From Lutjanus erythropterus (lineage: Eukaryota; Chordata; Actinopteri; Lutjaniformes; Lutjanidae), in assembly GCA_020091685.1 (NCBI GenBank), contig CM034599.1, positions 32,031,920 through 32,095,919 of the forward strand: DNA of 64,000 bases, read 5' to 3'. This document shows positions 4,341 through 64,000 of this stretch, one piece after another. The first letter of the stretch is position 1. Each line of letters opens with the position of its first letter. The translations under genes and the position numbers were made by a program. Below the pieces are notes generated by a model. It was not told where the DNA came from. It made no database searches and saw nothing but the letters and a program-made list of their open reading frames with translations.

Positions 4341-5774
4341 GCTTTAAAGGATGTGCTGATCAATTTTTTTTGGTCAAGAATATTTCTGTTTGTTTCTTTT
4401 TTGTTTGGCTTTTTAAAAAATATACTTTATTAGATAAAATAAATGAACACAGAGTGGTGTAACCTTAAAATTTTGCACACTACATCTTAGCCTGTCTTGC
4501 CCTCTGGTGTGCATGAGCTACAGGTTATATGAACTTCTTTTTAAAATACAAAAATGTTAAGTTGTCTTATCATATTGGCCATGAGAAGCAGATAATTATT
4601 GATTACCAGTACCGGCTCAAAAAAAAAAAAAATCCATATTGTGCATCCGAACTGGCTTCATCATATGTGGAGGGCTTGAGATCCTTCCACTGTGATTCTT
4701 TTTCTCAAACAATTATAGTTTCGACCAGCGAGATTATTTCTGCCTCAAAATTAGCTTTGTCTCAGGGAAATATTTGTAGAATTAGAGCTCGGCTCTGACA
4801 ACATTTTGTGAAATTATTTTTATCGTTTCATGCTGTTCAGTCGAGCTCAGAATATGTGTTTCTGTGTGTACTCCCAACTGTATGTGCTGCACCATCTGTT
4901 TGCATTATATCACACATCCTGTCGTCTCTTGGAAACTTCGGATGTTGGATGTATGCCTCTGCACCTTGACGGATTCTTACACATTTGTTTTATGTAGTGA
5001 TAAAATCTGAAAGAAGTAAACCTAATTGTGTGCGGTAATTGCATGATTTGCATTTTCATCTTCATTTTTCTCTACAAATGATTTCTCTCTTCATCCTATC
5101 AAGAAAAACGGGCTTAGAACTAAATACTCTTACTCTTAATTGGGTAGTGACAGATTGTCTAGGTACATCTTCATCTCCTAAAATACAGAAATTAGGGTAA
5201 TTCATGACTACATATACAAGACCATATCATTTCCAGACATAAAGTGGTTTTGATGACGTTTTGGCAAAATAATATGGAAACAGAACGAACCAAGATGACA
5301 TAAAAACTCTCAGATGCTCAAAAATAATTTGTACAGATGGGTTGCAAGTATTTTTTTTTACTGAATGTCAAGCCTCATAGCTTCTTTTAATTTGCTACAT
5401 AAGTAATCTGCTACTGAGCTTCAGTGCCAAGAGAGATGATTGAGCGGCTGTAATGATTTGTTCACATACCACAGTTAGAAATCAAAAGCTGCAAAGGCTT
5501 GTTAAGTAACAGCAGTAAAACCACAGTCAGTGCTGCACAGAGCAGATTTAGCTGTCTGGTACTTCAGAACGATAGTTTCATTTTCCTTTTATTTATTGGT
5601 GCTCATGTTCGTTGTTCCTGGTGTATGTTACAATATGTCAAGTCTGTCTTTCAAGGTCCTGGTGTCTCTGCCAGATACATGAGTAAATACTGTCACCAAG
5701 ACAGATTCCTGCATCCATCTGGCAGGCATATTAACTTCACAGACAATAATCAGTTTCTTATTGCGGATTTTGAT
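4341..5774. other. no supported gene
   Basis: AT-rich sequence with short open frames only, poly-A and poly-T runs (for example 4620-4632), and no recognisable coding or element termini. Confidence 0.5.
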
Positions 5775-11338: not shown

Positions 11339-12237
11339 CACTCACCGGCCATTTTATTAGGTACACCTTGCTAGTACCAGGTTGGACCCTTCAGAACCGT
11401 CTTAACTCTTTGTGGCGCAGATTCAACAAAGTGCTGGAAACATTCCAGAGATTTTGGTCCATATTGACATGATAGCATCATGCAGTCGCTGCAGATTTGT
11501 CGGCTGCACATCCATGATGTGAATCTCCTGTTCCACCACATCCCAAAGGTGCTCTATTGGATTAAGATCTTGTGACTGCCAAGGTCATTGGAGTATAGTG
11601 AACTCATTGTCGTGTTCAAGAAACCAGTTTGAGAAGATTTGAGCTTTGTGACACGGTGCATCATCCTGCTAGAAGTAGCCATCAGAAGATGAGTGCACTG
11701 TGGTCATAAAGGGATGGACATGGTCAGCAACAATGCTCAGGTAGGCTGTGGCATTTAAAAGATGCTCAGTTGGTACTAAGGGGATCAAAGTGTTTCAAGA
11801 AAATATCCCATCCACTATTACACCACCACCTGCCTGAACCGTTGATACGAGGCAGGATGGATCTATGCTTCCATGTTGTTTATACCAAATTGTGACCCTA
11901 CCATCCGAATGTAGCAGCAGAAATCGAGACTCATCAGACCAGGCAACGTTTTTCCAGTCTTCAGTTGTCTGGTTTTGGTGAGCCCGGGCAAACTGTAGCC
12001 TCAGTTTCCTGTTCTTAGCTGACTGGAGTGGCACCCAGTGTAGTCTTCTGCTGCTGTAGCCCATCTGCATCAAGGTTCGACGTGTGTTCAGTGACGTCCG
12101 GTACCAACAACCACGCCTTCTCCAATCCTAAATTTACATTCCTAAATGCACTGATTTGCTGCGATGTGATTGGCTGATTATATATTTGCATTAACGTGCA
12201 GTTGAACAGATGTAACTAATAAAGTGGCCAGTGACTG
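11339..12237 (-). mobile_element. Tc1-like transposon with decayed DDE transposase
   Basis: Terminal inverted repeats are CACTCACCGGCCATTTTATT on the left and, inverted, CAGTCACTGGCCACTTTATT on the right. They are bordered by TA dinucleotides at 11337-11338 and 12238-12239, the Tc1/mariner target duplication. The minus strand encodes transposase pieces. 12073-11795 reads through QFARAHQNQTTEDW and WSDESRF (first catalytic Asp) to DPSCLVSTVQAGGG. About 11680-11430 reads QDDAPCHKAQ (second Asp) and then QDLNPIEHLWDVVEQEI (final Glu). The pieces are separated by stop codons (one just before the SQDLNPIE stretch). The N-terminal helix-turn-helix half is missing, so at 899 bp it is shorter than a full Tc1 element. 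It is inactive. Confidence 0.9.
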
Positions 12238-56926: not shown

Positions 56927-58200
56927 TGCTTCAGTATTTGCCTGTTGAGTTTGCTTTATAGTTTTAATGTTTATTGGACTTTCTGTGTTTTTATTTATTT
57001 ATTTATTTCTATTGTTTTATTTAGTTTTCTTTTTAACATGTTGGAAATACAGAATTTTCATTAATTCTTTAATTCCAGAATGAAATTTTCGTATCGTTTC
57101 ATCTCTAGATACATGTGGATCGTATGTACATGATGTATGAGATATAATCAATACTATACATATGATAAACACAGTTGGTGGATAAAAAGTACGTATGTAG
57201 TAGAGTATGTACTGTTAATATCTGAGGAATTCATGCTTTTTTTGTTATGGGTAATTCTACTGAATTTGTGCAAACTGCTGTCCAACAACCAAAAGACAAA
57301 TTTAATTATCAATTGAAACCCAAAATAATATTTGATACAGCAGCAAGCTTAATTTGTATAAAAACATAATTTTTATTACATGCCTTTGTTAAGTACTTAA
57401 CTCCAATTGGGCAGTTACAGTTTTTTCAGGTCTGTTATTTCTGTATAGCAAACCATTGCTATGATTAACAGACCGTTGTTATTAAAAACAGAATCATTGT
57501 TAAATCACCAAAATCAAAAAATAATAAATTAATAAATTAATATTTTGTGTCATATTTTTGATTTTTTTGTAAATAACCATATATCAAGTAGGATAATGTA
57601 GAGTGAGCAGGTTGTTATTGTGAAATAAATCATGACAGTATGATGCAGGACCCTGCAGGATAAATGCATTTAGATTGTGTAACAATATAGGACATTTTGG
57701 CCTGATATATAAACAAGACAAAATAAGTGAGTTTAGGCAGAATTCACAGGCTCTCATTTTTTCCTGTCATCAATAAAATTCTTTTTAAAAGGTGTACTAC
57801 AGATATAAATCTTAAATTTTGCATTCATTCTTCAATGGTCTTTAATGTATTTAATAACCCAAAAAAATCTTCCGTGACCCGGAATGACTCATTTGCTGAT
57901 TTGTAGTGTAGTTTCAGTTGGGAGGCAGCTTTCCCAAACCACCATTGTTCAAACCATTGTTTTCTGCAATCAAGCAACCTTTTTAGTGTGTTATGGCAGA
58001 TCCTTTAGTGTTTATGTACAGATCTGGTTCAGAACTGTAACTGACCATGTGCTGATGAGCATCTTTGACATCTAGTCAACAAAACTGACCGATCACTGTT
58101 TGTCCCTGATTTATTCATCAAACAAACCATTTAATGTCAAATGTGACACACAGTGCAGCTTTAAATTCTAAAAACAAATGACCAAGAAACATGACATTAT

Positions 58201-58219
58201 TTTATTTTATTTTTTTATT
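58201..58219 (-). other. polyadenylation signals, gene copy 1
   Basis: Two AATAAA hexamers on the minus strand (58214-58219 and 58201-58206) lie about 23 and 36 bases after the stop codon, implying a very short 3' UTR. Confidence 0.55.
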
Positions 58220-58241
58220 TTTTGATGTACAAAAGTGATGT

Positions 58242-59512
58242 TCATTCATGTGGCTGATGGTGTTTGAATGTGTCTCGCAGATCCAGCTCAGGAAGAGGCG
58301 CCCAGCCCAAGCTCTCAAGAAGACTTCTTCCACTCCTTCTCCTTTCCTGGAGAGTCTTCTTGATGTCTTCTGTGGCCTGTCTTTCTGCTCTGTGTTCCTC
58401 AAGCTGGGCTTCATAGGAATCCTGGTCTTGCTTGATGGTCTTCTTGGCCTCCTGTTCTTTTTCCTGGAGAGTCTTCCTGAGGTCTTCTGTGGCCTGAAGG
58501 AGGGATGATTTTCCTTCTGCCACTCGTTATGATGAGTTTCCAGCTGCTGCTCAACCTTCTGCAGAGCATCTGCAAGTTTTGTTTTCTTGTTTCTGCTCTT
58601 GAAGTTGAGCATAAAGAAAGTCTTTGATTTTCTGTTTCTTCCACCTTCTGCTGCCAGCTGCGGCGCTGAGTCTCCAGCAGACCCTCTGCCTTTTCAGGGC
58701 AGAGAAATCTTCCTGGTGTCTGCTTTTTGTTCCTTCAGCTGGGCTTGATGGGAAGCCTTGACTCGTTCAGTGTCTTTTGTATCCTTTTGTTTAACAAGAC
58801 TCTCCTCCATTTTGTTCACCTTTGCTTGCAGCTTCTGAGCTTGATCCGCTCAAACACAAGATCGGCCTCCAGCTGTTCAGCAGCGAGCCTCAAACTCGCG
58901 GTGTCTTTTTCAAACAGCTGCAACTTAAGGCCATGAGTTGTCTTCTCCATGTTGGTTTCAGCCACGGCACGCAGCTGTTTTTCAACACAGACCTCTAACT
59001 TCATGGCCTCGACTTCGCTTTGGTCCTCGTTCTTTTGGTCATGGCCTCCAACTTGACTTCAAGTTCTTTGGCGTAGGGCGTCTTCTGCTCAAGGTCGCTC
59101 TGAGCTGTCCGCAGCATGAAGCAGATTTTCCTGAGGCGTATTTTCAGAGTCTCAGTGTCTTCCTGTTCAGAGCGGTCATGTTTGGCTGGAGCCGCGTCTA
59201 GCAGGGCTTGCAGTCTACATATTTCACTCTGCATCTGCTCTTTGCTCTTGTTGTCCTCTTGCTTGTCCTGGATCTGATCGATGAGAGCAGTCAGCGAGTC
59301 CACTGGATGTCCAAGTGGAGCCTCTGCTCAGATCGACCCTGGTCAGCCTTGCCTCGCTGTCCTTAACTCGTACCTTATTTCCTCCTCCAGGAATGGAGGT
59401 AGAAATCAAGGCGTCTGGTGGCGAAATCCTTCACTTGATTAGTCTGTTGATGGATCTCAGCGTTGTTTCTCCTCTGCCTCCTCTGCTTTCTCTGACTTTG
59501 TGTTGTTTCCAT
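58242..59512 (-). CDS. coiled-coil protein gene, copy 1 (frame-broken)
   Basis: Single-exon gene of about 1.27 kb (about 420 residues), ATG at 59510-59512 (METTQSQRK), stop at 58242. I cannot assign a family: it is not a canonical intermediate filament and has no membrane segment. Order seen: a basic Gln/Arg-rich start; an aromatic stretch (FYLHS); coils with LTALIDQIQDKQEDNKSK (59303 downward), QALLDAAPAKHDRSEQEDTE, MKLEVCVEKQ (from 59004), LADALQKVEQQLETHHNEWQ (near 58570) and two related heptad blocks, SSLLQATEDLRKTLQEKEQE and AERQATEDIKKTLQE. The C-terminus is DLRDTFKHHQPHE. The reading passes through at least four frame changes, the first after about 45 codons, where CTCCAGGAATGG lacks a G present in copy 2. 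These may be assembly errors or real decay. Minus-strand TATA box upstream and AATAAA downstream. Confidence 0.65.
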
Positions 59513-59620
59513 TGCAACTCGTGCTTGAACTTGTAAAACTTCTTTCCTAACTCGTGACAGTGAAATTCGTGTCTGAATACTCGACAGTGAAAATCGTGTC
59601 TGACGGGTTTGATTCTGAGA

Positions 59621-59631
59621 GGCCTTTTATA
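59621..59631 (-). promoter_or_regulatory. TATA box, gene copy 1
   Basis: TATAAAAGGCC on the minus strand lies about 109 bases upstream of the ATG, consistent with a start site about 30 bases downstream and a 5' UTR of about 80 bases. The same box and spacing occur in copy 2. Confidence 0.6.
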
Positions 59632-59867
59632 GCACATTCCAGAACTAACTTGATGATCATCAGAACACGGTTCCATTCTGTTCTTTGATCTTGTTGTTGC
59701 TATGGGATACCATTTTTTTAATTTTTTTTCCAAGATGGCTGACTGAATTTTTAAAACTTTATTTGTAAAAACAAAGAAATTACAACAAGGCATAGAAAAA
59801 CATTCCAGAGGAATAACATGCAAGCCATGATATAGAAAAATAATTTAACATTTGTATTATAATGCAG

Positions 59868-60793
59868 AGCAATAAGTAGTAAAGAAAAATAAACTAAAAA
59901 ACAAAAAACAAAATTGTGAAAAGGAAAAATGCATTAAGTCGATCTAGGGTCATAAAAACTTTCAGTTCTTCATAAGTTTTGAGGAGAGACTTGGTGTTTT
60001 CCTTCCATTCATTTTAAGGCACTCAGATGATTGGCCATAAAGTCCCTTTAAGTAACTGAGAAGTGGGGTTTAATTTTCCTCCATTTAGATGTGTAGATAA
60101 AAAAAAATTAGACTGACTGTATGTGAAAGTAAGCTGCATGTTACAATAGTATCTGTGTTTGTAAAATCTCTGTTTAGCCTTAGATATAACATTTGTATGC
60201 ATTCATAAAAGCGATGATGTGTATTTTCAAACATAATTTCAAGTAATATATTTCTGGAATAAATAGATCAAACAAAAATTTGGAGGCTCCGCAGTAACTG
60301 AAGACACCGAGTCACACTCATCACTGGGGTGACCGCTGGGTTAATGCATTAAGTGCAGTATTGTTTAATTGTAACAAGAGCAGGACGGCACGAGTGATTC
60401 AAATCCCAAAATGTACTGAGCTGAAATCATGTGTCATTGTTTTAAGGAAACATGAGAGCAGATTACAAGAATAATGGAGTTCATTACATATTTTGTTTTA
60501 ATGTGTGGGAAAAAATATTTTCACTATAAAGTCTTAGAAATAAAAGTGCTAACAAGAACCATAAATGGTTCTTCAGCAACCTCATAGGAGAACTCTTTTG
60601 GCTCCTGGTGAAACCTTTTATAAGAGTTCTTCTTGGAAACCTATCAGAGAGTTCTTCAAATAACCCGACATAAAGGGTTATACGAGAACCATCCATGAAA
60701 GGTTTCACCCAGTACTAACTAGAGGTTCTAGTAGGGGAACCCCTTCTTGGGAGTAATGGTCCCACCCAGAACACTAACTTGGGGTTCTATGCA
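59868..60793. other. spacer between duplicated units
   Basis: About 0.93 kb not found in the units as seen here. AT-rich at 59868-60520; the rest is the GGTTCTT-rich repeat. No gene. Confidence 0.6.
60530..60790. repeat. GGTTCTT-rich palindromic interspersed repeat
   Basis: Dense AGAACC/GGTTCT words on both strands: AAGAACCATAAATGGTTCTT is itself a near-perfect palindrome at about 60554-60573. It continues GAGAACTCTTTTGG, AAGAGTTCTTCTTGG, AGAACCATCCATG and GGGGTTCTATG. This resembles fish MITEs made of such motifs. It sits at the boundary of the tandem duplication. Confidence 0.55.
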
Positions 60794-62339
60794 GAGCACG
60801 TATTTGCCTGTTGAGTTTGCTGTATAGGTTTATTGAAGTCTGTTTGTTTGTTTTTATTCATTTCTATTGTTTTATTTCTTTTCTTTGAGGGTTGTTTTTC
60901 GTTTGAAATAAAGAATTTTAATTCTATCATTCCAATATGAAATTTTTGTACCGTTTCATCTCTAGAAACATGTGGACTACATGGACACAATGTATGAGAT
61001 ATAATCAGTACTGTGCATATGATAAACAGGTAGGTGAGTAAAAATACTGTGATGACCATCTCAGAGTTTGTACTGTTAATATCTGAGAAACTCATCCTTC
61101 TTTCGTTTTTCTTTTTTTTGTTATATGGGCAATTCAGCTGAATATGTGCAAACTGCTGTCCCACAACCAAAGTCCCAAACTAGTATTTGATATAGCAGTA
61201 AGCTTAATTTGTATAAAAACATTATTTTTATTACATGCCTTTGTTAAGTACTTAACTCTGATTGGTCAGTTACAGTATTTTAAGGTCTGTTATTTCTGTA
61301 TAGCAGACCGTTGCTATGACTAACTAACAGACCGTTGTTATTAAAACAGACTGATGCTATGGATACAGATCTAATCATAGACTCTGCAGGAAAAAATAGA
61401 GTCACTGTTAAATTAAAATCACTTTGAAATGAATATTTTGTGTCAATTTTTTGATTTTTATTTTGTAAATAACCATGTATCAAGCAGGATAATGTACAGT
61501 GAGCAGTCGTTATTGTGAAATAAATCATGACAGTATGATGCAGAACCCTGCAGGATCCCTTACATAGCAGTGTTTCCCAACCTTTGTTCCTTAGGATCCA
61601 CTTTTAAAAATGATAAACCATCAAGAAACAATCCACAATAGGCCTTATCAACACATTTTGGTAAAAGTTAATATGTGCATAAATGAATGGCGTGACCAGT
61701 TTTGTCATTTCCAGATGGTCTTATATTATGTTGACCTGTGTTCTCGAACATATTAAGTATTCAAGTTCTTTAAATCAGAAATAAATGCATTTACGCTGTG
61801 TAATAATATAGGACCTTTTAGCCTAATATACCCACCTGTGGTCACAACCGAGTTACTGGGAATGACTTATTTGCTGATTTGTAGTGTAGTTTCAGTTGGG
61901 AGGCAGCTTTCCCAAACCATAACCTCTTATTTCAACAACATATATTTTATTTTAAATCATGAGGCTGTATGTAAAAAGTCCCACATTCTCATGTCACTAC
62001 CAAAGCAGTGTAGGTCCCATCATTTTAAAGTACATGTGTATTTTTTGTAAATCAGGGTGTAAATTTAGGAAGTGTCACAAACCACCATTGTTCAAACCAT
62101 TGTTTTCTGCAGTCAAGCAACCTTTTTAGTGTGTTATGGCAGATCCTTTAGTGTTTATGTACAGATCTGTTCAGAACTGTAACTGACCATGTGCTGATGA
62201 GCATCTTTGAGATCTAGTCAACAAAACTGACCGATCACTGTTTGTCCTGATTTATTCATCAAACAAACCATTTAATGTCAAATGTGACACACAGTGCAGC
62301 TTTAAATTCTAAAAACAAATGACCAAGAAACATGATTAT

Positions 62340-62358
62340 TTTATTTTATTTTTTTATT
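62340..62358 (-). other. polyadenylation signals, gene copy 2
   Basis: Minus-strand AATAAA at 62353-62358 and 62340-62345, about 22 and 35 bases after the stop codon, as in copy 1. Confidence 0.55.
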
Positions 62359-62379
62359 TTTGATGTACAAAAGTGATGT

Positions 62380-63657
62380 TCATTCATGTGGCTGATGGTG
62401 TTTGAATGTGTCTCGCAGATCCAGCTCAGGAAGAGGCGCCCAGCCAAGCTCTCCAAGAAGACTTCTTCCTCCTTCTCCTTTTCTGGAGAGTCTTCTTGAT
62501 GTCTTCTGTGGCCTGTCTTTCTGCTCTGTGTTCCTCAAGCTGGGCTTCATAGGAATCCTGGTCTTGCTTGATGGTCTTCTTGGCCTCCTGTTCTTTCCTG
62601 GAGAGTCTTCCTGAGGTCTTCTGTGGCCTGAAGGAGGGATGATTTTTCCTTCTGCCACTCGTTATGATGAGTTTCCAGCTGCTGCTCAACCTTCTGCAGA
62701 GCATCTGCAAGAGTTTTGTTTTCTTGTTTCTGCTCTTGAAGTTGAGCCGCAAAGAAAGTCTTTGATTTTCTGTTTCTTCCACCTTCTGCTGCTGCAGCTG
62801 CGGCTGAGTCTCCAGCAGACCCTCTGCCTTTCAGGGCAGAAGAAATCTTCCTGGTCTCTGCTTTTGTTCCTTCAGCTGGGCTTGATGGGAAGCCTTGACT
62901 CGTTCCAGTGTCTTTTTGCATCCTTCTGTTTAGCAAGACTCTCCTCCATTTTGTTCACCTTTGATTGCAGCTTCTGAGCTTGATCCGCTCAAACACAAGA
63001 TCGGCCTCCAGCTGTTCAGCCTTTGAGTGAGCCTCAAACTCCGCGGTGTCTTTTTCAAACAGCTGCAACTTAAGGCCATGAGTTGTCTTCTCCATGTTGG
63101 TTTCAGCCACGGCACGCTGTTTTTCAACACAGACCTCTAACTTCATGGCCTCGACTTCGCTTTGAAGGTCCTCGTTCTTTTGGTCATGGCCTCCAACTTG
63201 ACTTCAAGTTCTTTGGTGTAGGACGTCTTCTGCTCAGAGTCGCTCTGAGCTGTCCGCAGCATGAAGCAGATTTTCCTGAGACGTATTTTCAGAGTCTCAG
63301 TGTCTTCCTGTTCAGAGCGGTCATGTTTGGCTGGAGCTGCGTCTAGCAGGGCTTGCAGTCTACATATCACTCTGCATCTGCTCTTTGCTCTTGTTGTCCT
63401 CTTGCTTGTCCTGGATCTGATCGATGAGAGCAGTCAGCGGAGTCCACTTGGATGTCCAAGTGGAGCCTCTGCTCAGATCGACCCCTGGTCAGCCTTGCGC
63501 TGTCCTTAAGCTCGTACCTTATTTCCTCCTCCAGGGAATGGAGGTAGAAATCAAAGCGTCTGGTGGCGAAATCCTTCACTTGATTAGTCTGTTGATGGAT
63601 CTCAGCGTTGTTTCTCCTCTGCCTCCTCTGCTTTCTCTGACTTTGTGTTGTTTCCAT
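62380..63657 (-). CDS. coiled-coil protein gene, copy 2 (frame-broken)
   Basis: Same gene as at 58242-59512: ATG at 63655-63657, stop at 62380, about 1.28 kb. The first frame stays open longer than in copy 1, reading METTQSQRK through FATRRFDFYLHSLEEEIRYE and LKDSARLTRG before shifting near 63480. Later pieces are QALLDAAPAKHDRSEQEDTE (from 63370), MKLEVCVEKQ (from 63146), LADALQKVEQQLETHHNEWQ (within 62936-62547) and a C-terminal piece ending DLRDTFKHHQPHE. Breaks fall at different bases from copy 1: GAGCCGC here versus GAGCA there; CTTCCTCC versus CTTCCACTCC. The protein would be charged, Glu/Gln/Lys-rich, cytosolic or nuclear, with long parallel coils; function unknown. Confidence 0.65.
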
Positions 63658-63764
63658 TGCAACTCGTGTTGAACTTGTAAAACTTCTTTCCTAACTCGTG
63701 ACAGTGAAATTCGTGTCTGAATACTCAACAGTGAAAATCGTGTCTGTGCGGTTTGATTCTGAGA

Positions 63765-63775
63765 GGCCTTTTATA
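63765..63775 (-). promoter_or_regulatory. TATA box, gene copy 2
   Basis: TATAAAAGGCC on the minus strand about 108 bases before the ATG. The surrounding sequence (CTCAGAATCAAAC downstream, GGAATGTGC upstream) matches copy 1. Confidence 0.6.
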
Positions 63776-64000
63776 GCACATTCCAGAACTAACTTGATGA
63801 CATCATCAGAACCAGGTTCCATTCTGTTCTTTGATCTTGTTGTTGCTATGGGATACCATTTTTTTAGTTTTTTCAAGATGGCTGACTGAATTTTTAAAAC
63901 TTTATTTGTAAAAAAAAAAATTACAAGGCATAGAAAAACATTCAGAGGAATAACATGCAAACCATGATATAGAAAAATAATTTAACATTTGTATTATAAT

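Follow-up and report, generated by a model that had tools for sequence, protein, structure and literature searches.

Two coiled-coil frames lie head to tail at the end of a 64,000-nucleotide window (the whole stretch of DNA that was analysed), and neither is intact in this assembly. The locus raises the question of whether such a pair represents dead genes, an artefact of assembly or part of a wider gene family, and how its copies arose.

The layout of the pair (Table 1) agrees with the preliminary description, which had reported two head-to-tail units of about 4.1 kb, each with an intronless minus-strand gene and a TATA box. The spacing between the units is 4.14 kb, their near-identical parts share 95.6% identity (28 mismatches in 1958, 35 gap openings), TATAAAA is present in both, and in each the coil can be read as a single exon without any intron. 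No structured RNA was found in the window by Rfam at gathering scores, and no tRNA by a tRNA scan. The element 3' end that closes unit 2 belongs to a dispersed repeat discussed below, in which the repeat arm proper starts at element position 5526.

Table 1. Coordinates of the features in the window
Feature	Position	Strand	Remark
Unit 1, 3' flank	56934..57661	-	counterpart of unit 2 60800-61556
Unit 1, near-identical part	57932..59863	-	aligned to unit 2
Unit 1, coiled-coil frame from ATG	58211..59512	-	frameshifted as assembled, C-terminus deleted
Unit 1, TATAAAA box	59625..59631	-	starts 119 nt before ATG
Dispersed-element 3' end, closes unit 2	60110..60384	-	element positions 5457-5738
Unit 2, 3' flank	60800..61556	-	75.8% to unit 1 56934-57661
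Unit 2, near-identical part	62075..64000	-	aligned to unit 1 57932-59863
Unit 2, A-rich stretch following frame, includes AATAAA	62334..62361	-	read from sequence
Unit 2, coiled-coil frame from ATG	62349..63657	-	frameshifted as assembled, C-terminus deleted
Unit 2, TATAAAA box	63769..63775	-	starts 118 nt before ATG
Unit 2, TGATGTCA promoter element	63798..63805	-	30 nt upstream of TATA box

The small number of substitutions in the coding part would fit a false (haplotype) duplication in the assembly. This is very improbable, as the units are much more divergent in their 3' flanks (79 mismatches, 26 gap openings in 800), and in unit 1 the sequence next to the near-identical part (about 57660-57940, immediately upstream of the unit's 3' flank) is closest to another locus, the C16 copy L010 (93.6%). 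The duplication at the window edge had also been taken as a hint of a longer, expanding array. That expectation fails, because the next 19 kb beyond the window hold the remainder of unit 2 and a third-unit remnant of about 190 bp, with nothing more of the array, and the other copies are scattered over other chromosomes; the long array is rejected.

As assembled, the pair does not provide the usable gene that had been proposed: the longest coding-sense ATG frame of unit 2 is 96 aa. Both units lack the family C-terminus, together with about 0.4 kb of 3' sequence. The relatives L009, L012, L014 and L015 continue to ..LAKKKKKK.., and L013 stops just before it. The proposed length of about 420 residues thus stands for the C-terminally deleted form and not for the family. 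The window copies would be recent, tandemly placed members of the family whose C-terminus was lost through a real deletion.

The small frameshifts call for another explanation. Measured against a composite built from the two window copies, unit 2 requires 11 frameshifts, unit 1 requires 15, and neither has an in-frame stop, although such counts are circular because the composite derives from the same copies. One possibility is genuine pseudogene decay of the two window copies, with real small deletions accumulating after the loss of the C-terminus. The C-terminal deletion and some single-base deletions are common to both units, the latter possibly as ancestral damage, and stops are present in other relatives. 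This reading was weighed by comparing private 1-2 nt indels with private substitutions in the window copies and the dispersed copies. The noncoding ratio of indels to substitutions was 19:19 in the window versus 6:67 in dispersed copies (p 1.4e-6), and the coding ratio 17:24 versus 0:50 in L009, L012, L014 and L015 taken together (p 1.3e-7). The window copies therefore carry about ten times as many small indels per substitution (a ratio of about 1 against about 0.1). These indels are about equally dense inside and outside the coding sequence, and 31 of the 36 are deletions. In the upstream flank of unit 2 beyond the window, outside the near-identical part, the ratios were 3:17 and 0:8. Of the 23 single-base deletions, 19 sit in runs of identical bases, as many bases do anyway. 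Passages of PMC8081667 describe short indels as the most frequent type of error in long-read contigs, and give an example of an unpolished locus with frameshifts. The excess and its equal density in coding and noncoding sequence favour unpolished long-read consensus over decay for most of the indels, and the absence of in-frame stops by substitution points the same way, subject to the circularity of the composite. Decay is accordingly an unlikely account of the pair. Most small frameshifts would instead be uncorrected consensus errors in near-identical repeats, an imperfect fit, since the excess extends into the 3' part of unit 2, where unit 1 is diverged. It follows as a warning that repeats in long-read assemblies may resemble pseudogenes merely through absent polishing.

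The window pair is part of a multi-copy family of single-exon genes that is dispersed in this genome, an animal's and probably a fish's. In two protein searches of it (28 and 37 rows, joined within 20 kb), the family matched at 28 places on 14 contigs. At 12 of these places the match lies in a stop-to-stop frame of 414-772 codons. Intact copies, whose absence would have spoken against the gene, exist at more than one locus of this genome: ATG frames measure 719 aa in L016, 516 in L009, 398 in both L012 and L014, 386 in L015 and 355 in L013, and at least 482 aa in L031 and at least 638 aa in L040, both cut by the end of the locus. The complete frames that were read encode coiled coils of 355-719 residues. 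Among the other relatives, L010, L019, L020 and L021 likewise appear broken, and L030 appears truncated. Among viral contigs, 14 stretches matched the patterns, and none of them encoded a relative.

Purifying selection acts on the protein in older comparisons. The C3 copy L031 gave dN/dS values of 0.20-0.24 against all five A copies compared (L009, L012-L015; p 3e-17 to 1e-23), and the pair L016/L018 gave 0.31 (p 1e-6); for L039/L040 the value was 0.8. Evolution is near neutral among the youngest copies, where ten pairs ranged from 0.38 to 1.21 and a single one differed from 1 at p < 0.05. As most of these values are indistinguishable from 1, many of the youngest copies may be decaying.

Recent copies spread together with their promoter and flanks. 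The TGATGTCA element of unit 2 is also found upstream of distant relatives, and, of 13 upstream stretches, 7 have it 5' of a TATA box. Long common stretches including the flanks, at 91-99%, are found in L009 and L011-L015. Up to about 5.3 kb is common to recent copies and sits between the arms of an older repeat; on L013, which serves as the ruler, these two arms span positions 1-978 and 5526-5760. A processed pseudogene would be a copy without the promoter and flanks of its parent; the idea of a retrocopy, drawn from the A-rich 3' stretch, is thus unsupported for the recent copies, in which both are common.

It is conceivable, if less likely than not, that a transposon-like element with these arms captured the gene, promoter and 3' flank as DNA, perhaps with a Helitron-like rolling-circle spread; this is compatible with the family reading rather than exclusive of it. 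The 5' end is identical in L050, L051 and L011 and within a few bases of this in L052 and L013, while the left flanks of L050 and L051 match no others except for one 46-bp match. The 3' end is identical in L050, L041, L014 and L015/L042. L050 has both ends and no gene, the matches of an old gene-less C5 copy are confined to 2-978 and 5526-5760, and the gene-bearing L031 and L020 start just beyond the arm, at positions 1007 and 1002. In four of the five older copies fetched (L043, L044, L046 and L047, the last of them degenerate), the 3' end is joined directly to the 5' end, L045 being the exception, and a variant of this joint is common to L023 and L030. Genome-wide, the 3' end occurs in at least 44 rows and the 5' end in at least 54, with 40 candidates scored for each end. 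A simple tandem repeat was considered for the joint and dropped, as old copies have the identical joint. A LINE-like origin of the 5'-truncated L041 and L042 was also rejected, since they show no target duplication and carry promoter-upstream sequence along.

Several points weigh against the transposon as carrier. By eye, no transposase or helicase frame was recognised in the element. Its ends bear no terminal inverted repeats, and no target duplication was convincing, including the 6-bp AATTTA at L050, so that the pattern is not that of a DNA transposon with both. Helitrons are marked by a TC start and a CTRR end with a 3' hairpin, and these were not seen in the element ends read, although head-to-tail joints without inverted repeats do agree with Helitrons. 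The border between arm and cargo is blurred by matches of L018 (70 bp) and L019 (50 bp) to 894-978, and the whole ruler together with the gene is spanned by L013 alone. The common flanks, the ends that recur from copy to copy, the head-to-tail joints and the copies with no gene suggest that the recent spread may have been a DNA-level capture and dispersal by a Helitron-like element. The bolder proposal, that an undescribed, selected coiled-coil family is copied with its promoter as the cargo of a non-autonomous element whose ends are unfamiliar, and that this element so makes immediately expressible new genes, seems rather unlikely; if true, one element would have gene-bearing, gene-less and head-to-tail forms.

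As for the protein, the coiled coil that had been proposed is upheld in the relatives, five out of five of which show significant heptad periodicity (windowed z 6-11), but not in the window composite under a single-phase test (p 0.66). The family has a conserved N-terminal stretch (..SLEEEIRCELKDSEARL.. in close copies), coil blocks that vary in number and a polybasic C-terminus in those members that extend to the family end. As far as tested, the gene has no named-family match, as had been stated: no Pfam family was found up to E 0.1 for the L009, L031 and L016 proteins, and the L016 protein, the sole relative compared with PDB, hit no chain up to E 0.01. With the window composite, Hrs_helical appeared at E 0.026, below the cut-off of that profile. 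Such a protein would act as an elongated self-associating coil, and its basic tail would bind an acidic partner, such as a membrane or nucleic acid.

Taken together, the window pair probably represents recent, C-terminally deleted copies of a dispersed single-exon coiled-coil family, with frameshifts that are mostly consensus errors and a product that would be a self-associating coil with a basic tail. An odd pair of broken frames thereby becomes a testable case of a selected family with no named domain and a recent spread with its own promoter.

Long coiled-coil proteins receive golgin-, trichohyalin- or myosin-rod-like labels from automatic annotation. The family shares with them heptads rich in Glu, Gln, Lys and Leu and very few Pro or Gly, but differs in its single exon, its conserved N-terminal ELKDSEARL stretch, its basic tail and the lack of a Pfam match up to E 0.1. 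The coil of Caveolae-associated protein 1 (PDB 9eiu) resembles the window composite in coiled-coil composition over about 90 residues, which was the best match and at chance level (E 0.031, composite only). Helitron-type gene capture offers a likeness in the promoter-bearing gene carried as DNA, the recurrent ends and the head-to-tail joints, whereas its canonical ends and Rep/helicase were not found in this element. DUX4-type intronless arrays (PMC3004920) are likewise multi-copy genes of a retroposed intronless type; the gene studied here, however, is not a homeobox gene, and it occurs as two units with scattered copies.

The genome from which the window comes (444 contigs, 937.6 Mb; the window occupies C9:32031920-32095919) contains at least 28 matches to a 93-residue piece of the window protein, the last 26 residues of which are translated 3' noncoding sequence, and at least 37 matches to 247 residues of an intact copy on contig C14. 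Joining hits within 20 kb reduces the 65 rows among the matches listed, the weakest of which have E near 1e-3, to at least 28 places on 14 contigs. One of these, at 34.97 Mb on C4 (locus L011), was matched solely via the noncoding stretch of the query, its gene being lost. In 12 of the places, the match lies inside a stop-to-stop frame of 414–772 codons (477, 434, 587, 427, 587, 414, 745, 575, 566, 459, 772 and 596), and C7 holds an additional frame of 508 codons. From the ATG, the fetched loci L009, L012, L014, L015, L013 and L016 encode 516, 398, 398, 386, 355 and 719 residues; L018 and L010 end early, at 393 and 213, and the gene is broken or partial in L019–L022 and L030. From these open frames, it follows that the gene family is real and single-exon and that the window carries two damaged members, U1 and U2.

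Several neighbouring features were observed. Two family copies in L021 on C4 point in opposite directions, with about 2.6 kb between them. Directly after the intact 719-residue gene of L016 on C2 comes a long tandem-repeat-like frame (CVYICVYMCVY..), and the C7 frame of L017 contains similar sequence. A 240-residue frame adjoining the broken C6 copy in L030 resembles part of a retrotransposon reverse transcriptase, and a 110-residue frame in the window looks like a Tc1-type transposase fragment.

Positions of the tandem pair, of neighbouring frames and copies, and of the inverted-end repeat
Feature	Locus	Position	Strand	Source
Near-identical part of pair	U1 / U2	57932-59863 / 62075-64000	minus	window self-comparison
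Second matching part of pair	U1 / U2	56934-57661 / 60800-61556	minus	window self-comparison
Chimera-like stretch	U1	56934-57940		
110-residue frame	window	11795-12127		
Two family copies	L021	5190-5937; 8530-9374		
CVYICVYMCVY.. frame	L016	6301-6861		
240-residue frame	L030	2360-3079	minus	
Inverted-end repeat	L012	5-1129		
Inverted-end repeat	L014	1267-2058		
Inverted-end repeat	L015	7237-8427		
Inverted-end repeat	L042	from 6884		

The preliminary description proposed two head-to-tail units of about 4.1 kb, each gene with a TATA box. Self-comparison of the window bears this out with a spacing of 4.14 kb, and TATAAAA starts 118 nt (U2) and 119 nt (U1) before the ATG. The Glu/Gln/Lys-rich coil is indeed continuous on the minus strand of both units, but its frame switches many times. 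Against the composite, the protein reading pieced together from both units, U2 needs 11 and U1 15 frameshifts, and each needs three in-frame gaps; neither contains an in-frame stop. This count is circular, as the composite was built from U1 and U2 themselves, with X at uncertain joints. The suggestion of a longer array did not hold: the next 19 kb of C9 (L023, L024), searched with the window's array, contain the remainder of the U2 upstream part, about 190 bp of a third-unit 3' end and short older repeat pieces, and no further gene. U1 appears chimeric, since its coding part is near-identical to U2 while the adjoining 3' stretch is closest to the C16 copy L010; the likely cause is gene conversion or unequal exchange.

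Private changes were counted in an alignment of nine sequences (U1, U2, L009, L010, L012–L015 and L031). U1 has 11 private indels (10 frame-shifting) and six private substitutions, and U2 has eight (seven frame-shifting) and 11. L009, L012 and L014 have no private indels, L013 and L015 two each, all multiples of three, and L010 and L031 three each, of which two and one, respectively, are not multiples of three. Across the noncoding blocks, private 1–2 nt indels and substitutions stand at 19:19 in the window units (U2 alone in three of the four blocks) versus 6:67 in dispersed copies (p 1.4e-6). The coding block gives a ratio of 17:24 (16:22 with a different row set) versus 0:50 in L009, L012, L014 and L015 combined (p 1.3e-7). 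Deletions account for 31 of the 36 small indels of the window units, and 19 of 23 single-base deletions, counted manually, lie within runs of at least two identical bases, which alone is weak evidence. The ratio is 3:17 in the U2 upstream flank outside the window and 0:8 in its 5' arm; in a 388-column block where the flank is again near-identical to U1, it is 3:4 for U2 and 2:3 for U1. The excess therefore tracks the near-identical part, except that the 3' part of U2, where U1 has diverged, is also affected. Apart from the tandem pair, the four longest repeat pairs in the window gave a normal ratio (16 gap openings versus 149 mismatches), a control that informs the ratio alone because gaps per base are equally many at the age of those pairs. 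The indel:substitution ratio and the similar indel density in coding and noncoding sequence point to consensus error behind most of the small frameshifts; error of this kind is described in PMC8081667. The C-terminal loss, a deletion of several hundred bases common to both units, is probably real.

By Nei–Gojobori counts, L031 on C3 gave dN/dS of 0.20–0.24 against each of L009, L012, L013, L014 and L015 (p 3e-17 to 1e-23) and 0.20 against the partial L010; L016 against L018 gave 0.31 (p 1e-6). The 10 pairings of L009 and L012–L015 gave 0.38–1.21, one of them departing significantly from 1 (p < 0.05), and L039 against L040 gave 0.8. The coiled-coil protein was therefore under selection earlier in its history; in the newest copies, constraint is weak or cannot yet be seen. 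All five relatives tested showed significant heptad periodicity, and the composite did not in a global single-phase test (p 0.66). That the preliminary description matched no named family agrees with Pfam, where L009, L031 and L016 had no match up to E 0.1 and the best match of the composite was Hrs_helical at E 0.026, under its cut-off. In the PDB, the best E for the composite was 0.031, and the L016 protein had no match up to E 0.01. Among titles and abstract starts of the open-licence literature searched, none was found describing the family, nor any paper with the letters ELKDSEARL.

Flanks with the gene or its remains are common to copies on C2, C4, C13, C14 (two), C16 (two) and C6. Where they align, L009 and L011–L015 are 91–99% identical and the older L010 and L030 about 74–94%; the longest common stretch, about 5.3 kb, is that of L013 and L014. 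On L013 (5764 bp) as the ruler, an old C5 copy matches solely at 2-225, 235-978 and 5526-5760, and the first matching position is 1007 in L031 and 1002 in L020, which both carry the gene. Because the former covers only the arms (1-978 and 5526-5760) and the latter start past 978, the element appears to be a pair of repeat arms with the gene, promoter and flanks between, although short matches of L018 and L019 to 894-978 run counter to a clean border. L050 on C2 is a gene-less copy with both ends, and L011 is an element copy without its gene; L041 and L042 keep just the last 0.72 and 0.35 kb. The 5' end TTTATTTATCTCTGAAATG is present in L050, L051 and L011; L052 is a few bases shorter, L013 starts at ATCTCTG, and L012 has another repeat before it. 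A search of the L050 and L051 left flanks against the other loci gave no match except one of 46 bp; other left flanks were compared, in part by eye, and inspection by eye of open pieces of the repeat revealed no transposase or helicase frame. L050, L041, L014 and L015/L042 all have TTTAACATTACAA as their 3' end; the last two count as one event because the next repeat is common to both, and L013 differs at one base. This 3' end runs straight into the 5' end in four of the five older copies fetched (L043, L044, L046 and the degenerate L047); this joint was not seen in L045.

Upstream of the gene, TGATGTCA occurs in nine of 13 stretches (U2, L009, L012, L014, L016, L018, L031, L039 and L040) and is absent in U1, L010, L013 and L015. 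It lies 30–33 nt before the TATA box in U2, L009, L012, L014 and L016, 47 nt in L018 and 15 nt in L031; no TATA box follows it in L039 and L040. The arrangement is old, because it is kept in L016 and L018, whose proteins are related to the window's only distantly (dS above 1.6). We know of no transcription factor for TGATGTCA.

The family thus has a coiled coil and selection on its protein, and has spread with its promoter. The product may be a self-associating rod, with a number of coil blocks that would differ among copies, and its basic tail (KKKKKK..) would anchor it; the tail-less window copies would be altered or null.

At the element's head-to-tail joint, copies on different chromosomes have in common a second, unrelated-looking insertion: a different repeat that has inverted ends CAGACAATTG..CAATTGTCTG and is flanked by CAATTTAT. 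Its arrangement is that which a hAT-like insertion with an 8-bp duplication would give.
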